Assembly (NCBI RefSeq): GCF_020907245.1
Contig: NZ_JAJJWH010000001.1
Span: 62,001-126,000, forward strand
Reading direction: 5' to 3'
Source of the DNA: Pontibacter harenae
Lineage (GTDB): Bacteria; Bacteroidota; Bacteroidia; Cytophagales; Hymenobacteraceae
DNA length: 64,000 nucleotides
In this document: in pieces, positions 41,403 to 48,477 of the stretch
Position numbering within the stretch: the first letter of the stretch is position 1
How the letters are laid out: every line of letters begins with the position of its first letter
Position numbers and translations under genes: made by a program
The notes under the pieces: model-generated
The model's database searches: none
Seen by the model: the letters and a program-made list of their open reading frames with translations, nothing else
What the model was told of the DNA's origin: nothing

Positions 41403-42776
41403 CTAGTTTTTACTTGGTACATAAAGGTCTTCGGCCCAGTTAAAGCGATCTGAAGGCGAGAAGGCCCATGGCGCTCCGTTGTTCTCGATGTTCGTGAACA
41501 TGGAGTTCAGTGCCGCAGGAGCAGCCGATTCTTCCAATACCAGGAAACGGCGCAGGTCCATGATAGTAGACAACTGGTCGATGTTAACAGGGCAAGACTC
41601 TACGCAGGCATTACAGGTAGTGCAGGCCCAAAGCTCCTCTGGTGTGATGTAGCCACGTAGTAGCGTCTTTTCATCTGTTACCTCTACACGCTCCTCGCCT
41701 AACTCTTTATAGTGATTTGGAGCAAAGATAGCAGGATGCACGCCTTTCTCCTCCATACGGTCGCGGGTATCCATTACGATCTTTCGCGGCGACAATAACT
41801 TGCCAGTTATGTTGGCAGGGCAAACCGACGTACAGCGCCCACACTCGGTACAGGTGTAAGAATCCATCAGTTGCTTCCAGGTCAGGTCTTCCACATCCTT
41901 TGCCCCAAAGCGCTGGATAACTGGGTTTCCTTCGGCATCCATTTCTGGTGCTGGCGGCTGATAGCTTGGATCCAGCATGGCTTTAATCTCATGCGTTATA
42001 GCAGGGTTAGTGGTGAACTTACCTTTTGGCAGCAGCTTAGAGTAGTACACGTTCGGGAATGCCATGATAATATGGAAGTGCTTGGAGCTTGGCAGGTAAT
42101 TCATAAAAGCCAAGATACCGATGATATGGAACCACCAGCCTACACGCTCAATAATATGCAATGTAGTAGGGTTATCTCCAAAAATGTTCACGAACGCGCT
42201 GCTGATCGGGTAGCTACCAGCCACTTCGCCTCCTTGCAACTGCACCAACTTTAGCCCAGCAATGTTAAAGACAAACAGCGCCAGCATCAGCACAATTTCT
42301 GTAACCAGAATGGTGTTGGCATCTACCTTAGGCCAGGCGCGCAACTCTACCCCACTCGACAGGCGCGGCACTTTCGTTACATTTCGGCGCCACAGAAAAA
42401 TGGCACAAGACACAATTACCAGCGCCGCCAGAATTTCATTTATAAACATCAGGGCAGTGTATACTGGCCCTAGAAAGCCCAATACCCGATGCGAACCTGT
42501 TATTCCGTCTATCAGAATCTCAATCACCTCCACGTTTATTACCAGGAAGCCTACATACACAAACAAATGCAGTACTGCTGGCAACATGCGCTTAAACATT
42601 TTTTGCTGCCCAAATGCCACCAGTAATGTCTTTTTAACACGCTCCGAAGGATTATCAGTGACATCCAAATCGCGGCCCATGAGCACGTTCTTGCGGATGT
42701 TTCTGATTTGCCACACAAACAGACCTATGCCTATGGTGGCCACTATTAAGAAGATAATATTTTCGACTCCTATCAC
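41403..42776 (-). CDS. Membrane Fe-S oxidoreductase: NarI/HdrE-like domain plus two 4Fe-4S clusters
   Basis: A 457-residue protein. TM helices lie at about 5-22, 66-88, 100-125, 155-175 and 213-235, with histidines suited to b-type haem ligation (LPAVLHLFVYVGF, IERVGWWFHIIGILAF). The C-terminal part has two ferredoxin motifs, CTECGRCTSVCP (about 310-321) and CTTCNACVESCP (about 383-394). This is the HdrE+HdrD N-half or EMO N-half architecture: electrons move from Fe-S centres to membrane quinone. The CCG-domain subunit is encoded just downstream. Confidence 0.87.
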   Translation of the reverse strand: MIGVENIIFLIVATIGIGLFVWQIRNIRKNVLMGRDLDVTDNPSERVKKTLLVAFGQQKMFKRMLPAVLHLFVYVGFLVINVEVIEILIDGITGSHRVLGFLGPVYTALMFINEILAALVIVSCAIFLWRRNVTKVPRLSSGVELRAWPKVDANTILVTEIVLMLALFVFNIAGLKLVQLQGGEVAGSYPISSAFVNIFGDNPTTLHIIERVGWWFHIIGILAFMNYLPSSKHFHIIMAFPNVYYSKLLPKGKFTTNPAITHEIKAMLDPSYQPPAPEMDAEGNPVIQRFGAKDVEDLTWKQLMDSYTCTECGRCTSVCPANITGKLLSPRKIVMDTRDRMEEKGVHPAIFAPNHYKELGEERVEVTDEKTLLRGYITPEELWACTTCNACVESCPVNIDQLSTIMDLRRFLVLEESAAPAALNSMFTNIENNGAPWAFSPSDRFNWAEDLYVPSKN

Positions 42777-42877
42777 GGCAAATTATTCGTTATGCATACC
42801 ATTTAACACTTAAATATAGCTGTTCTGGCGCTAAAATGCATGTATGCGTATTTTTTTAAATTTTTTTTGACTTAACG

Positions 42878-42908
42878 TTTGACTTTTCAAAACAACCTGC
42901 TACTTTTG
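42878..42908 (+). promoter_or_regulatory. tRNA-Phe promoter, perfect consensus
   Basis: TTTG (42878-42881), 19-base spacer, TACTTTTG (42901-42908): exact match to the Bacteroidota primary-sigma promoter. The tRNA begins 36 bases after the -7 box. Confidence 0.85.
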
Positions 42909-42944
42909 CATACCCTTACAGAACAAAGGGGCACACCAAGAGCT

Positions 42945-43017
42945 GGTGATGTAGCTCAGTTGGTAGAGCAAAGGACTGAAAATCCTTGTGTCGTTGGTTC
43001 GATTCCAATCATCACCA
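42945..43017 (+). tRNA. tRNA-Phe (anticodon GAA)
   Basis: A 73-base cloverleaf. Acceptor GGTGATG pairs perfectly with CATCACC, discriminator A at 43017. D-arm GCTC...GAGC, anticodon stem AAGGA/TCCTT with loop CTGAAAA giving GAA, T-loop TTCGATT. CCA is not encoded. Confidence 0.97.
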
Positions 43018-43020
43018 CAG

Positions 43021-43051
43021 AAACCCTCTCCTTTAACGGTGAGGGTTTTTT
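43021..43051 (+). terminator. Terminator after tRNA-Phe
   Basis: AAACCCTC (43021-43028) pairs with GAGGGTTT (43041-43048), followed by T to 43051. It begins four bases after the tRNA. Confidence 0.8.
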
Positions 43052-43272
43052 ATTTTTATGGTCCTCTTCTACCGCTACAGGCCTTTATATACTTTATTTC
43101 AAGTATAAAGTTCATCGCTAATTATTGCAGGTAAAATCGCGCATCTTCTTCAAGCGGAACTAGAGCTTGCTAAAACAGATATAGTTTTAAGATACTTCTG
43201 AATAGAATGACTGGCATGTCAGTGAAAGAGCCATTTGCAATCAATAAAAGAATTAAGAAGGCAGAACTAATA

Positions 43273-44367
43273 TTACAAACAATTCGCTCGCATTTCTAAC
43301 ATAGCAGCGGAGTACCCTAAGCGATACGCCTCCACAAAATGCTCGCAGGCAGTATCATTTAACTCCTGCTCCAGTTCTGTTCGGCCAAGCAGATAGTACA
43401 CGCGCCCGTTATTGGCATCAGCCGCCAACACACGTTTATAATCTGTTTCAGATAAGGCATAAGCACCTATTTTATAGTAGCCAAAGCCCCTGTAGGTTAG
43501 CGCTGTGGCCCAAGCCTCACCGCCTTTGTTATGCTTTAAGTATTTTGTGAGGTCCTCAATAGCCGATTTGTACTCCTTCAGATAAAAGAGCCTTACTTCA
43601 CCTCGTTGCAGGTATACAGCATGAAGAGTACTATCCTTCTGTAAAGCCTGAGAAAAGTCTCTCTCTGCCATCTTGTAGCGCGACAGCTTTGATAAGCACT
43701 TACCGCGCATAAAGTACGTTTCACCAGCCACATTCTCCTGTAAGGCGATAGCCTGGTTCAGATCTCGCACAGCGGCTTCATAGTTCTCATACACGTTCAT
43801 CTCAATGCTGGCGCGGGTAAGGTAGGCCTCTGCATGGTCTGGCTGAAAATGGATGGCATCAGTTAAAAAGCTATGGGCACTGCTATATTTACCTTCGGCC
43901 ATAAAAGTTAAAGCCGATTTATAATTCTCTTCCCCCGAAATATAATCCATTGTAACTTTCAGCAGAAAGCTGAACAGCAGAATACCACCAACAAAAGCAA
44001 CTGTTATATACCAGTCTTTGCGGGAAAAGCGCCGCTTCTGCTGCCGCGGTATGTTACGGTAGTGGCGCTCTGAAACTGAAGCAGGAGGCCTTGTCTGGTA
44101 ATAACGCGCATTCTGATAGGCTTGCTGCTGCAGAATATGGCTTTGCTCCCGCAATATTTGCAGCTTCATGTCATAAATAGCACGTTTTCCTGCGTCAGAA
44201 AGTGTTTGGTAGGCAGTATTAACCAGCTTAAACCGCTCCTCCGACTGCGCATCACCTGGGTTTCTGTCTGGGTGATACTGCAGCGCAAGCTTTTTGTAAG
44301 CCAATTTTATTTCATGTGTGGTGGCACTTGAGCTTATTCCTAAAATTGTATAGAAATTCTGTTCCAA
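43273..44367 (-). CDS. DnaJ-domain and TPR membrane protein
   Basis: A 364-residue protein. Residues 4-68 are a J-domain with the HPD motif ([12 protein letters not shown]), so it should stimulate a DnaK-type chaperone. A basic Gln-rich linker follows, then one TM helix (about 122-142), then four to five TPR repeats (about 150-350; [43 protein letters not shown] and similar). There is no zinc-finger or DnaJ C-terminal domain, so it is a type III J-protein that probably recruits DnaK to a membrane site. It ends CL. Stand-alone gene. Confidence 0.88.
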
Positions 44368-44516
44368 CCTTGCTTTTTACTAATAGTAATAACTATAAAA
44401 TTAACGAAATTCGTACACGACCGCTCAAATTCCGTACTACTTTTCTATAAACTCTTATACTTAATGTAAATTTTTAAGTATAGCATCGTATACGAAAAAC
44501 TAAAAAGCTTAGCACT

Positions 44517-44897
44517 ATGGCCGAACCAGACAACGGAACAAAAGAAAAAAGCACTAATCTCGTCGAAAACCTGATGGGCTACATCGATACCCGTATCGAT
44601 ATTATTCGCCTCGAAATACAAGAAAAGCTCAAAGGAGCCTTTGTAGGCACCATACATGCCATTTTACTAGGGTTCGCTGCTTTTATGAGCCTTATTTTTG
44701 TAAATATCTTTTTAGGTTTACTGCTAAATCACTTGCTCGATAGTTCTTTTTGGGGGTTCGGAATTGTGGCGTTGTTTTATATTATCCTGTTGGTGATCCT
44801 AGTGATTGGTGTAGACAAAAAAGTATTTCAGGGCTTAGCCGATAAAACATTTGACAATACCTTATACAAGAACGACAAAAGAGAAAAATCTATATGA
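44517..44897 (+). CDS. Holin-like (phage_holin_3_6/YqjE-type) membrane protein
   Basis: A 126-residue protein with an N-terminal amphipathic helix (NLMGYIDTRIDIIRLEIQEKL) and two TM helices (about 44-67 and 77-100). The pattern matches the 'phage holin family' (Actinobacterial holin-X/YqjE) of cellular membrane proteins; no phage genes are near, so lysis is not implied. It overlaps the next gene by four bases (ATGA) and begins a three-gene operon ending with GGGP synthase. Confidence 0.78.
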   Translation: MAEPDNGTKEKSTNLVENLMGYIDTRIDIIRLEIQEKLKGAFVGTIHAILLGFAAFMSLIFVNIFLGLLLNHLLDSSFWGFGIVALFYIILLVILVIGVDKKVFQGLADKTFDNTLYKNDKREKSI

Positions 44898-45511
44898 GCG
44901 AGTTAAGCAACCCCCTGTTCGACAGCGAAAGAGAACTCCTGGAACGCCAAAAGGAAGAATATAAAAATGCCCTAATGGGAGATGTAGATACCATCAAAAC
45001 ACAGAGTCAGGAAATTGGCAAAAAAGTGGCCATAGCTGGCGGTGTTTTATTGGTAGGCGCTCTGATAACCCGTGCTTTTAGTGGCGGTAGCAGCGACTCT
45101 AAAAAGAAGAAAAAGCAAAAAAGCAAAAGCTCTAAAGAAGACAAATCTAAATTAGAGGTAGTGCATGTTGCCTCCAGCGATATGGGCACTAACCCTGCTG
45201 GGTATAATTCTTTCTCGCATGACCAGGAAGATGACTATACCTTATCGTCGGAGCGTATGCCACATGCACACCACGATAAGCAGCCTAAGTCTCAGAAGGA
45301 CAAGAAGAGTAAGTCTAACAGCTTCTTTAAGTCTGATGTGGCCAAAGCTATATCGCAGCAGCTAATGGCTCTGGCGGTAGTGTATGCTACCAAAAAGGTG
45401 GAAGAATACTTAAGTAGTGTCTCTGAAAATAACGATATTGCAGCGGACCAGGTAGAGGTTACTGAAATAGAGACTACTGAGTATATTATTCCCGAAAAGG
45501 ATGCCATTTGA
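44894..45511 (+). CDS. Lys/Ser-rich membrane-associated protein of unknown function
   Basis: A 205-residue protein. An N-terminal helical segment (ELLERQKEEYKNALMGDVDTI) precedes a Gly/Ala-rich TM helix (about 45-63, VAIAGGVLLVGALITRAF). A very basic low-complexity stretch follows (KKKKKQKSKSSKEDKSK). A His-rich patch (MPHAHHDK) and a second hydrophobic helix (about 150-170) come next, with an acidic C-terminal tail. I do not recognise a family. It resembles small YqjD-type envelope proteins in layout. Overlaps on both sides (4 and 11 bases) tie its expression to the holin-like gene and GGGP synthase. Confidence 0.7.
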   Translation: MSELSNPLFDSERELLERQKEEYKNALMGDVDTIKTQSQEIGKKVAIAGGVLLVGALITRAFSGGSSDSKKKKKQKSKSSKEDKSKLEVVHVASSDMGTNPAGYNSFSHDQEDDYTLSSERMPHAHHDKQPKSQKDKKSKSNSFFKSDVAKAISQQLMALAVVYATKKVEEYLSSVSENNDIAADQVEVTEIETTEYIIPEKDAI

Positions 45512-46271
45512 TATTTTTTACCAGAACAAGCAACAACAACCATCACCAGGCAGGAAGTACTTTGCAGTACTACTAGATCCAGATAACTTAAATGAGGCTT
45601 CCTGCCTGCAGATCCTTTCGCTGAGTGAGCTTCATCAGGTAGATTTTTTCTTAGTAGGCGGCAGCCTGATTACCTCACAAAGCCAGAGCGCTCTCATCCA
45701 GCTAATAAAGGACAATTCCAGCATTCCTGTTATACTTTTTCCAAGCAGCAGCCTACACCTCGACAAACAAGCCGACGGCATATTGCTGTTATCCCTTATT
45801 TCTGGCCGCAACCCTGAGTTCTTGATAGGACAACACGTAATTGCCGCGCCCATTCTTAAAGCTAGCCAGCTACAGATATACCCAACAGGTTATATGCTTG
45901 TAGACACTGGCAAGCAAACCACTGCCTCTTACATGAGCGGCACCACTCCTATTCCTTATGATAAACCAGCCATTGCCGCCTGCACTGCCATGGCTGGCGA
46001 GCAGCTAGGTTTGCGCTATATGTACTTAGACGGTGGCAGCGGAGCCCAGAAGCCCGTTAGCCCCGAAATGATTGCTGCTGTCCGCCAGGCAGTAGAAGTG
46101 CCTCTTATAGTTGGCGGCGGCATAAACACCCCCGAAAAAGCAAGAACAGCTCTAGCATCGGGAGCTGATGTAGTTGTTATTGGGAACCACATAGAAAAAA
46201 ACCCCAGCTTTTTGGCTGAGGTTTCTAAAGTTGTAGCTTCTTTCAATATTGCCTTAGATGTTCATCGCTGA
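45501..46271 (+). CDS. Geranylgeranylglyceryl phosphate synthase family protein (PcrB-like)
   Basis: Transfers a prenyl chain to glycerol-1-phosphate, forming an ether bond. A 256-residue TIM-barrel protein with LLDPDN at the first strand, FFLVGGS, PVILFPSSS, YMYLDGGSGAQKPVS and the phosphate loops VGGGINTPEKA and VVIGNHIEKNP. Archaeal GGGPS starts ether lipid synthesis; Bacteroidota carry a related group with activity on GGPP in characterised cases. Substrate here is inferred. The start lies 11 bases inside the previous gene. Its 3' end overlaps the convergent AraC gene by 18 bases. Confidence 0.88.
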   Translation: MPFDIFYQNKQQQPSPGRKYFAVLLDPDNLNEASCLQILSLSELHQVDFFLVGGSLITSQSQSALIQLIKDNSSIPVILFPSSSLHLDKQADGILLLSLISGRNPEFLIGQHVIAAPILKASQLQIYPTGYMLVDTGKQTTASYMSGTTPIPYDKPAIAACTAMAGEQLGLRYMYLDGGSGAQKPVSPEMIAAVRQAVEVPLIVGGGINTPEKARTALASGADVVVIGNHIEKNPSFLAEVSKVVASFNIALDVHR

Positions 46272-47177
46272 TTCACGGCGACGCATCTTACCAGCTGGTA
46301 TACCAAACATCATCTTAAAGCGACGGCAGAAGTAAGCTGTATCTTTGTAGCCCACATCCTTACCAATCTCACGGATACTCTTTTTAGTAGTTCTTAGCAA
46401 GAATACTGCACGTTCCATACGCTGGTACTCGATGTAGTCCTGCGGGTTAATGCCTGTCAGCATTTTGAAGTACTGCCCAACATAGTCTTCCGAAACGTTC
46501 GCAACGTTAGAAAGCACTTTGTTCGAAAGGTCTCCACCCAAATTCTCCTTGATATAGTTGAACAGGTCGATCAAACGAGGGTCTTTGAAGTAGGTGCTGT
46601 TAGTAGCCAATTGCTCCACAAACATTCTGTTCTTAAGAATATGGCGCACAATCTCTACCACAATTTGCTCGGTGTACAGGTTAATCAGACGCTCCTTACC
46701 TGGCAACCCTTGCATATTCTCTTCTACAACTTTTATAACCAGGTTGGCTAATTTGTTATTGTTCGAGATTAAGAAGGCAGGTAGGTCCAAGGATGCAAAG
46801 AAGTTAACTGAATCGAAAACTTTCGCCTCGAAGCTAACATAACTGTGGCTGTCCTCAGCATCACCTATCAAATCAAGATCGTTGTTGCTTTTAAAGAACT
46901 TTTCCCTGTTTGTAATCAAATCGTCGTTAGAGATGGTTCTTCCATCTATAGAGCCATAGGTAACTTTTGTGCTTCGACCTCCAGGAATAAACAGTAGTTC
47001 CCCTTCTTCTACCATTTGCTCCTCGTCGCCAAAGAAGATGCTGCCTTTATGAAGCAATATCAAGTTATTACCAACATCGTAGTAGTTGCGAACCTTAAAC
47101 GGCTGCTGCAACACCAGATTCTTAGCCTTAATGAACCGCACCCCAAGCGATTCAATAATTTTATTGTAATCTTCCAT
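46254..47177 (-). CDS. AraC-family transcriptional regulator
   Basis: A 307-residue regulator. The N-terminal part (about 20-130) is a cupin-like sensing domain with GELLFIPGGRSTKVTYG. The C-terminal part (about 205-300) has two HTH motifs: LSNKVLSNVANVSEDYVGQYFK and the signature KSIREIGKDVGYKDTAYFCRRFKMMFG, split here only by description. Ligand and targets are unknown. It has an AT-rich 160-base upstream region shared with the acyl-CoA dehydrogenase end. It converges on the GGGP synthase gene with overlapping ends. Confidence 0.88.
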   Translation of the reverse strand: MEDYNKIIESLGVRFIKAKNLVLQQPFKVRNYYDVGNNLILLHKGSIFFGDEEQMVEEGELLFIPGGRSTKVTYGSIDGRTISNDDLITNREKFFKSNNDLDLIGDAEDSHSYVSFEAKVFDSVNFFASLDLPAFLISNNNKLANLVIKVVEENMQGLPGKERLINLYTEQIVVEIVRHILKNRMFVEQLATNSTYFKDPRLIDLFNYIKENLGGDLSNKVLSNVANVSEDYVGQYFKMLTGINPQDYIEYQRMERAVFLLRTTKKSIREIGKDVGYKDTAYFCRRFKMMFGIPAGKMRRRESAMNI

Positions 47178-47337
47178 GTGTGTTACGAAGAAACTTTATA
47201 CTATAAACCCATTAAATTTTGGCATAAAGCTAAGGCTAATCTTTATAAAATTCAAATTATTTCTAAAAATTAAGTTTTAATTAAAGAAACACTATTTTCC
47301 TCAAAAGCACCATGGAAATAAGGTTTTGCTTCAGTTT

Positions 47338-48477
47338 TTACTTCAGCAATTCTCTTGAAATTACTATTTTCTGTATCTCAGAAGTACCTTCGTAAATCTG
47401 GGTGATCTTTGCATCACGCATTAAGCGCTCTACATGGTATTCTTTCACGAATCCATACCCTCCATGTACCTGCACTGCCTCTACAGCGGTGTCCATTGCT
47501 ACCTGCGATGCAAAAACCTTAGCCATAGCACCTGATTTACCATAATCTTGGTGTGTGTCTTTATCGTGGGCAGCCTTTAAGCATAACAATCGAGCAGCCT
47601 CAATGTTTGTCGCCATATCTGCTAGCTTAAACTGAATGGCTTGATGCTTCGAAATTTCTACTCCAAACGCTTTGCGCTCTTTTGAATATTTCAGCGCTAA
47701 CTCGTATGCTCCAGAAGCAATGCCTAGTGCCTGAGAAGCAATGCCTATTCGACCACCTGCTAAGGTGCTCATGGCAAATTTAAAACCAAAGCCGTCTTCA
47801 CCAATCTTATTTTCTTTAGGAACTTTCACATCGGTGAACATAAGGGAGTGCGTGTCGGAGCCACGAATACCCAGTTTGTTTTCTTTTGTTCCAACCACAA
47901 AACCTTCCATGTCGCGCTCCACTATCAGCGCGTTTATACCTTTGTGGCCCTTCTCTGGGTTTGTTTGCGCTATTACAATGTATACAGATGCAGTGCTACC
48001 ATTCGTGATCCAGTTCTTCGTGCCATTCAGCAGGTAGTAATCGCCTTTATCCTCTGCTGTAGTGCGTTGAGAGGTGGCGTCAGAACCTGCCTCTGGCTCC
48101 GATAAGCAGAACGCTCCGATAATCTCTCCTGTCGCCAGGCGAGTCAAGTACTTCTGCTTTTGCTCTTCTGTTCCGTAGTGCTCCAGGCCCCAGCAAACAA
48201 GTGAATTGTTAACAGACATGACAACAGAAGCAGAAGCATCGACTTTAGAGATTTCTTCCATGGCCAGCACATAGGCCACAGTATCCATACCGCCACCTCC
48301 GTATTTCGGATCTACCATCATTCCTAAAAAGCCAAGCTCGCCCATTTTCTTTACTTGCTCCGCTGGGAACCTTTGATGCTCATCGCGCTCAATAACACCA
48401 GGAAGCAGTTCTGTCTGTGCAAATTCTCGGGCAGCAGCCTGCACCGCTAACTGTTCTTCTGTTAGTTGAAAATTCAT
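47338..48477 (-). CDS. Acyl-CoA dehydrogenase
   Basis: FAD-dependent alpha,beta-dehydrogenation of acyl-CoA. The 379 residues are full length with ACAD signatures AFCLSEPEAGSDA (about 122-134), KNWITNG, and the C-terminal QVHGGYGFVKEYHVERLMRD. The catalytic base is Glu363 in IYEGTSEIQ, the position used in short/medium-chain enzymes. Similarity in motifs is strongest to butyryl-CoA dehydrogenases. ETF genes are not in the window. The Fe-S oxidoreductase at 40.4-42.8 kb could accept electrons from its ETF (inference). Confidence 0.92.
   Translation of the reverse strand: MNFQLTEEQLAVQAAAREFAQTELLPGVIERDEHQRFPAEQVKKMGELGFLGMMVDPKYGGGGMDTVAYVLAMEEISKVDASASVVMSVNNSLVCWGLEHYGTEEQKQKYLTRLATGEIIGAFCLSEPEAGSDATSQRTTAEDKGDYYLLNGTKNWITNGSTASVYIVIAQTNPEKGHKGINALIVERDMEGFVVGTKENKLGIRGSDTHSLMFTDVKVPKENKIGEDGFGFKFAMSTLAGGRIGIASQALGIASGAYELALKYSKERKAFGVEISKHQAIQFKLADMATNIEAARLLCLKAAHDKDTHQDYGKSGAMAKVFASQVAMDTAVEAVQVHGGYGFVKEYHVERLMRDAKITQIYEGTSEIQKIVISRELLK

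Follow-up and report, generated by a model that had tools for sequence, protein, structure and literature searches.

GGGP synthase (GGGPS), which forms GGGP from GGPP and sn-glycerol-1-phosphate, starts the synthesis of ether lipids in Archaea. Homologs from Bacteroidetes have been reported active in vitro, as cited in PMC7852524. Surveys report a gap at G1P dehydrogenase in most bacteria of the FCB group (PMC6431249, PMC7852524), and one of them describes the activity and use of GGGPS in the lineages without this dehydrogenase as unclear (PMC6431249). According to a review, two Tyr and one Glu are strictly conserved in GGGPS, with an Asp and a Ser/Thr serving Mg and loop residues serving phosphate; the Glu (E167 Af / E180 Mt) is said to owe its strict conservation to roles in catalysis and stereospecificity (PMC9385802). 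PA3040-PA3042 of Pseudomonas aeruginosa, the closest studied operon with a YqjE-type gene that we found, is reported to be induced by envelope stress and in stationary phase, and the proteins of E. coli and P. aeruginosa are reported to have diverged in function (PMC11302039).

The window, by which we mean the whole stretch of 64,000 nucleotides of Pontibacter harenae DNA that was analyzed, holds a locus in which a holin-like gene comes first, a gene that we label KSH lies in the middle, and a GGGPS gene comes last. A conserved operon partner offers a handle on the role of GGGPS, and here the partners are two small membrane proteins, one of them from a family without a Pfam entry.

Layout of the locus

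The overlaps of 4 and 11 bases within the trio, which an earlier note on this DNA had pointed out, were confirmed from the open reading frames and the letters (Table 1). Both flanks of the trio are genes on the opposite strand, so that it looks like a closed unit, and holin, KSH and GGGPS together look like one operon, presumably read as a single transcript. Six terminator-like sites fall within 44300-46500, against a mean of 2.0 in shuffled sequences; a scan for sigma-70-like promoters gave 4 sites against a mean of 3.7 in shuffles, which is no excess, and an Rfam scan of 42700-47500 returned a tRNA and no other RNA. The genome itself, in an assembly 87.65% complete, has a single GGGPS match and a single PF07332 match. 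Relative to three genomes of the same genus, pN/pS is 0.14-0.19 for the holin gene, 0.38-0.40 for KSH and 0.24-0.26 for GGGPS; these ratios are rough, with synonymous sites near saturation, and their low values speak for three constrained genes. An AraC-like regulator on the opposite strand downstream of GGGPS recurs at 34 or more of the 88 loci of the order where the holin gene, KSH or both are present, a count that comes from a similarity cluster and that short flanks make a lower bound.

Table 1. Positions of the features discussed (window coordinates unless a locus is named).
Feature	Position	Strand	Remarks
DnaJ domain fused to TPR repeats	43273..44367	-	upstream, divergent from the trio
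Holin-superfamily-III gene	44517..44897	+	126 aa, ATG start; open reading frame and PF07332 match
Holin stop/KSH start overlap	44894..44897	+	4 bases, read from the letters
KSH gene	44894..45511	+	205 aa, ATG start; orphan Lys/Ser-rich membrane protein
KSH stop/GGGPS start overlap	45501..45511	+	11 bases, read from the letters
GGGPS gene	45501..46271	+	256 aa, ATG start; GGGPS/PcrB-family prenyltransferase, group II type
Asp codon, GGGPS residue 177	46029..46031	+	catalytic Glu position (E167 Af / E180 Mt numbering); coordinate derived from residue 177
Terminator-like stem, 12 pairs and T tail	46197-46226	-	within the 3' end of GGGPS, in position to terminate the convergent AraC gene
AraC-type regulator	46254..47177	-	convergent; overlaps the GGGPS 3' end by 18 bases
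Tested members of class neighbor clusters	L197:3659-4237, L214:3690-4316		class loci outside the order

The two membrane proteins

The first protein of the trio matches PF07332 Phage_holin_3_6 at 49.1 bits (cut-off 28.4), in agreement with its earlier description as holin-like, and the same family is matched at E <= 0.01 by 34 of its 34 aligned relatives. Its AlphaFold2 model (mean pLDDT 81.0) has a long helix, 7-74, followed by helices 79-98 and 101-124. The profile of the family resembles E. coli YqjE weakly (hhalign probability 24.6%, E 0.0008), and a PF07332 search also gives a match in E. coli.

The middle protein had been described as rich in Lys, Ser and His, which holds for Lys (12.7%) and Ser (13.2%) and not for His (2.4%). 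A simple hydropathy threshold is exceeded by one segment, 40-65. In the AlphaFold2 model, built on an alignment of 33 rows and with a mean pLDDT of 65.6, this segment lies within a helix spanning 7-62, which is joined by a low-confidence linker to a second helix at 148-180; two membrane passes are less likely than a single pass with the C-terminal helix at the surface. KSH in the window has no Pfam family above cut-off, no family matches more than 2 of the 47 KSH members that were scanned, and DUF883 is absent from the 25 families displayed (of 39) for these members.

Several candidate identities for KSH were rejected. Its hhalign probability is 0.4% against E. coli YqjD, 0.2% against YqjK and 1.2% against the holin partner. 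Structure gave no identity either, the model being of low confidence and the sole Foldseek match having an E-value of 7.3. Profile matches in the PDB, to TMH4C4 (E 1e-4), presumably a designed helical membrane protein, and to apolipoprotein A-I and similar entries, were read as matches of composition.

The enzyme and its active site

The identification of the third gene as GGGPS is borne out by three models, all over cut-off: PF01884 PcrB (121.6 bits, cut-off 23.9), NF003198 (270.3 > 247) and the equivalog TIGR01769 GGGP (176.4 > 161.55). The best solved relative, matched over its full length, is 4jej (1.5e-50, 175.3 bits), which we take to be the Flavobacterium johnsoniae enzyme; judged by GGGPS identity, the nearest named species are Pontibacter, with 78% to P. 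cellulosilyticus.

An inactive site on alignment, which the earlier note had named as a finding that would speak against its proposal, was not clearly obtained. The window protein has Asp177 in place of the catalytic Glu and, in the phosphate loop, Asn where group II enzymes have Thr, and the other residues named in the review are present. We studied 131 GGGPS loci of the order Cytophagales, the window locus and 130 from other genomes. The Mg-binding Asp (D25 Mt), the Ser (S54), the Tyr134-type Tyr and the glycines of the phosphate loop are invariant in 131/131, and the Tyr178-type site is Y in 116/131 (window included) and F in 15/131. The Glu position itself holds Asp at 107 of these loci and Glu at 24. 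Asp also occupies it at 69 of 89 loci sampled from the class Bacteroidia and at 79 of 80 loci of named species, the closest relatives, which are the best 80 of 565 and partly share genomes with the order set.

On a 220-row FastTree phylogeny of GGGPS, from which the Asp/Glu column was meant to be omitted, the site changes at least 19 times, as would be expected if both residues work. In view of this repeated change we regard the Glu as defining the archaeal-type site only and not the sequence family, and reading the Asp as the sign of a dead enzyme is not supported. Nor is a switch of acceptor tied to the trio: raw counts are 69 D / 5 E at loci with the trio and 24 D / 19 E at loci with neither partner, of which only 4 supported independent pairs remain on the tree, too few for a test. 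Co-variation of the site with the Thr/Asn position of the phosphate loop is loose. Within the genus, GGGPS has a pN/pS of about 0.25, estimated from nearly saturated synonymous sites, which indicates that the gene is maintained; this and the alignments suggest that the window GGGPS is probably an active enzyme. We conclude that the strict conservation of the Glu stated in the review does not, as judged from these sequences, extend to Bacteroidia GGGPS; a site that is mostly Asp across the class suggests that the statement was drawn from a narrow sample. No report of Asp for Glu in Bacteroidia GGGPS was found in the literature searched, which was mainly open-licence.

No clear G1P dehydrogenase was found. 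None of 59 order genomes reaches the cut-off of model NF002022 for this enzyme (0 of 59; best 39.7 bits against 413), yet no more than 3 of 14 control genomes do, so a bacterial AraM-type enzyme may be missed; PF13685, over cut-off in 34 of the 59, also matches 13 of 14 controls and is thus non-discriminating. Three PF13685 hits occur in the window genome, and the best of them was rejected as a G1P dehydrogenase because it is AroB. A UbiA protein of this genome passes NF009513 'prenyltransferase' (302.3 > 288) and stays below the DGGGPS-named models (best 182.9 < 278); this candidate DGGGPS-like gene (L167) lies on another contig (C45) than the trio. The other four UbiA matches include MenA, heme o synthase and EboC. 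The EboC gene (L169:491-2334, contig C39) lies directly behind a hydrolase-like gene that by eye resembles EboB, and is part of an ebo cluster.

Distribution of the trio

Of 194 Cytophagales genomes, 157 have a PF01884 match. The survey of gene neighborhoods proposed in the earlier note shows that the trio is kept far beyond this strain: the full set stands at 73 of the 130 order loci from other genomes, in every case with the same gene order and with all three genes on the same strand, and at 51 of the 80 named loci (KSH beside GGGPS at 57), where it spans Pontibacter, Hymenobacter, Spirosoma, Dyadobacter and Roseivirga. With the window locus included, the order loci comprise 74 with the trio, 7 with KSH and no detected holin, 7 with the holin and no KSH, and 43 with neither, as counted with profiles trained on the same loci and with flanks of only 1.5 kb for the first 31, where distant partners may be missed.

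In a whole-genome search the KSH profile was found in 137 of the 194 order genomes, nearly always once. Where the positions of both genes are listed (126 genomes), KSH lies no more than 2 kb from GGGPS in 91, belonging to 14 family groups, and elsewhere in 35, some of these being weak matches down to E 1e-4. GGGPS occurs without a KSH match in 24 of the 194 genomes, and 11 have KSH with GGGPS absent or unlisted by position, 7 of which do have GGGPS. Linkage follows families, with no linked genome in f2, f4 or f18, so that these counts are not independent. By parsimony on the GGGPS tree the trio state changes at least 17 times, with all class loci scored as trio-less although one of them, L219, has the trio.

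Outside the order the picture differs. GGGPS is found in 175 of 198 genomes of the class sample, 7 of them from the order, and KSH at E <= 0.001 in 22 of the 198, again 7 from the order. The only strong KSH match of this sample outside the order (E 2e-24) is in the genome that carries the full trio at L219 (G218); at a further class locus, L225, a weaker KSH (E 7e-8) stands beside GGGPS. In a phylum sample all 12 KSH matches at E <= 1e-6 among 296 are within the order. KSH is thus found almost only in Cytophagales. A contig labeled as a Bifidobacterium breve MAG (L300) carries a Cytophagales-type trio and is probably mislabeled or from a contaminated bin.

Membrane pair without enzyme, enzyme without pair

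Twenty loci with KSH away from GGGPS were examined, from 16 of the 35 unlinked genomes and from 4 genomes without a GGGPS match (G086, G113, G126 and G190; the assembly of G113 is no more than 89% complete). At 18 of them the holin gene immediately precedes KSH, 14 of 16 in the unlinked genomes and 4 of 4 in those without a match. Holin and KSH thus form a largely independent module of which GGGPS is a frequent but dispensable operon member, though the 7 + 7 order loci with a single partner speak against a strict pair.

The surroundings of these unlinked pairs vary. In family f18 (L248-L252) holin and KSH stand before acyl-carrier-protein-like genes, with a FabF-like gene in L248, L249 and L252; they adjoin a ClpX-like gene in L254 and L255 and a gene for a DksA/TraR-type zinc finger in L239 and L240. 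The neighbors of L248, L254 and L239 were confirmed by Pfam, and the remaining pair loci were judged by eye. GGGPS outside the order, or inside it with neither partner, has recurrent neighbors of its own, counted as similarity clusters with one member of each tested by Pfam: a 4'-phosphopantetheinyl-transferase-like gene upstream at 40 of 89 class loci, a ThiE-like gene downstream at 31 of 89, and a pyruvate kinase neighbor at 22 of the 43 order loci with neither partner.

Overlap of KSH and GGGPS

The genes for KSH and GGGPS overlap at 72 of 81 linked loci, that of the window included. For comparison, 87 class loci and 43 order loci with neither partner were examined. A same-strand upstream neighbor is present at 63 and 14 of them, and it overlaps GGGPS at 16 and 1, respectively. 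In all sets the GGGPS start nearest to the upstream stop was taken, which favors overlaps and treats the controls identically. The overlap therefore belongs to the KSH-GGGPS junction and not to GGGPS generally, and suggests translational coupling of the two genes. Holin and KSH overlap at 22 of 74 loci and lie within 200 bases of each other at 74 of 74.

Discussion

What does an archaeal-type lipid enzyme do behind two small membrane proteins? The earlier note had proposed that the lipid product and the membrane proteins work together, for example in envelope stress or membrane remodeling. That the trio is kept far beyond this strain, and that KSH overlaps GGGPS more often than other upstream neighbors do, speaks for this. 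That the pair is kept at 18 of 20 loci away from the enzyme, that 24 of 194 genomes have GGGPS without KSH, and that GGGPS is common in the class sample where strong KSH matches are nearly absent outside the order, speaks against it. From the two sides together, co-regulation of the pair with GGGPS is supported by the gene arrangement, and an obligatory joint function is not supported.

Our preferred reading, in which our confidence is evenly divided, is that the trio is an envelope or membrane-homeostasis module of the YqjE type to which a co-regulated lipid enzyme has been joined. The three genes would form one inner-membrane operon. Located in the cytoplasmic membrane, the holin-III protein and KSH would help to preserve envelope integrity during stress or stationary phase, as in YqjE-type operons of Proteobacteria. 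This role is favored by analogy with the induction reported for PA3040-PA3042. In much of Cytophagales GGGPS would be the end of the operon. Because its start lies inside the end of KSH, ribosomes finishing KSH could re-initiate on GGGPS, and synthesis of the lipid enzyme might in this way keep pace with that of the pair. The prenyl-glyceryl phosphate formed by GGGPS would presumably be converted further into a minor ether lipid of the membrane; the candidate DGGGPS-like UbiA protein of this genome is in line with this reading. Points against it are the weak match of the holin profile to E. coli YqjE, a KSH with no detectable relation to YqjD or YqjK, the divergence in function reported for the E. 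coli and P. aeruginosa proteins, the order loci with one partner of the pair, and a linkage that follows families.

The main rival is a shared operon without a shared function, which we regard as a real possibility, if on balance a doubtful one. GGGPS would be an old resident downstream of holin and KSH, and descent together with selection for compact operons would keep the order of genes whose jobs are unrelated. That linkage follows families fits this account well, as do the genomes with only one side of the arrangement (24 with GGGPS and no KSH, 4 with holin and KSH and no GGGPS match) and the other partners that GGGPS has in other orders, the phosphopantetheinyl-transferase-like and ThiE-like genes described above. 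It accounts less readily for an overlap found at nearly all KSH-GGGPS junctions and at few junctions with other upstream neighbors, or for linkage that persists in 14 families, with KSH proteins as little as about 20% identical to that of the window. A more intimate arrangement, in which KSH recruits GGGPS by contacting the enzyme or its membrane surface through the C-terminal helix, the product passing straight into the membrane and the holin-III protein serving as a platform, would make sense of the tight overlap, of a modeled C-terminal helix set apart from the membrane helix, and of an enzyme described as soluble with a hydrophobic product (PMC9385802). We consider it unlikely, since the C-terminal part of KSH is also kept where GGGPS lies elsewhere (in G039, G095 and G034, for example, nearly the whole profile is matched).

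The Pfam name 'holin superfamily III' is by itself the one point in favor of deriving the trio from a phage cassette for lysis or pore formation that acquired a lipid gene. This origin is disfavored to the point of being scarcely credible: the trio's membrane genes occur in about one copy per genome and are kept across the order, no phage gene is prominent among the neighbor clusters looked at, PF07332 is matched in E. coli as well, and the YqjE-like PA3041 is reported to be part of the P. aeruginosa core genome (PMC11302039). A bolder version of a joint role, which we think improbable, is that holin-III and KSH constitute a new, Cytophagales-specific membrane module that would handle the prenyl-glycerol ether lipids of a GGGPS with an Asp-type active site, by inserting, segregating or sensing them. 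If true, the widespread and unexplained GGGPS of Bacteroidota would gain a cellular role.

Systems of this kind are known; the combination of genes, the order-restricted KSH family and the overlap are undescribed as far as our searches reach, and no description of a link between GGGPS and a holin was found in the literature searched, an open-licence collection with few subscription papers. The homeostasis reading draws on PA3040-PA3042, with which the trio shares three tightly spaced genes, a YqjE-like holin homolog and an orphan third gene; it differs in that the first gene there is DUF883/YqjD, for which the trio has no counterpart, and in having a lipid enzyme, which PA3040-PA3042 is without (PMC11302039). 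KSH was compared with YqjD and YqjK of E. coli, and no homology was detected. In the E. coli K-12 cluster yqjC-yqjD-yqjE-yqjK a YqjE gene likewise stands beside genes for small proteins, and the overlap of yqjE and yqjK is, by annotation, also 11 bases, whereas GGGPS is absent and the partner families are other than those of the trio. The enzyme itself resembles group II GGGPS as solved in 4jej over its full length and keeps the Mg-binding Asp, the Ser, the Tyr134-type Tyr and the loop glycines, but has Asp for Glu and Asn for Thr and is encoded within a membrane-protein operon. A further parallel is the GGGPS-DGGGPS gene pair of Cloacimonetes, also archaeal-type ether-lipid genes of the FCB group where no G1P dehydrogenase is known (PMC7852524); the lipid genes there adjoin each other, whereas in the window genome the UbiA candidate lies on another contig and GGGPS keeps company with holin and KSH.
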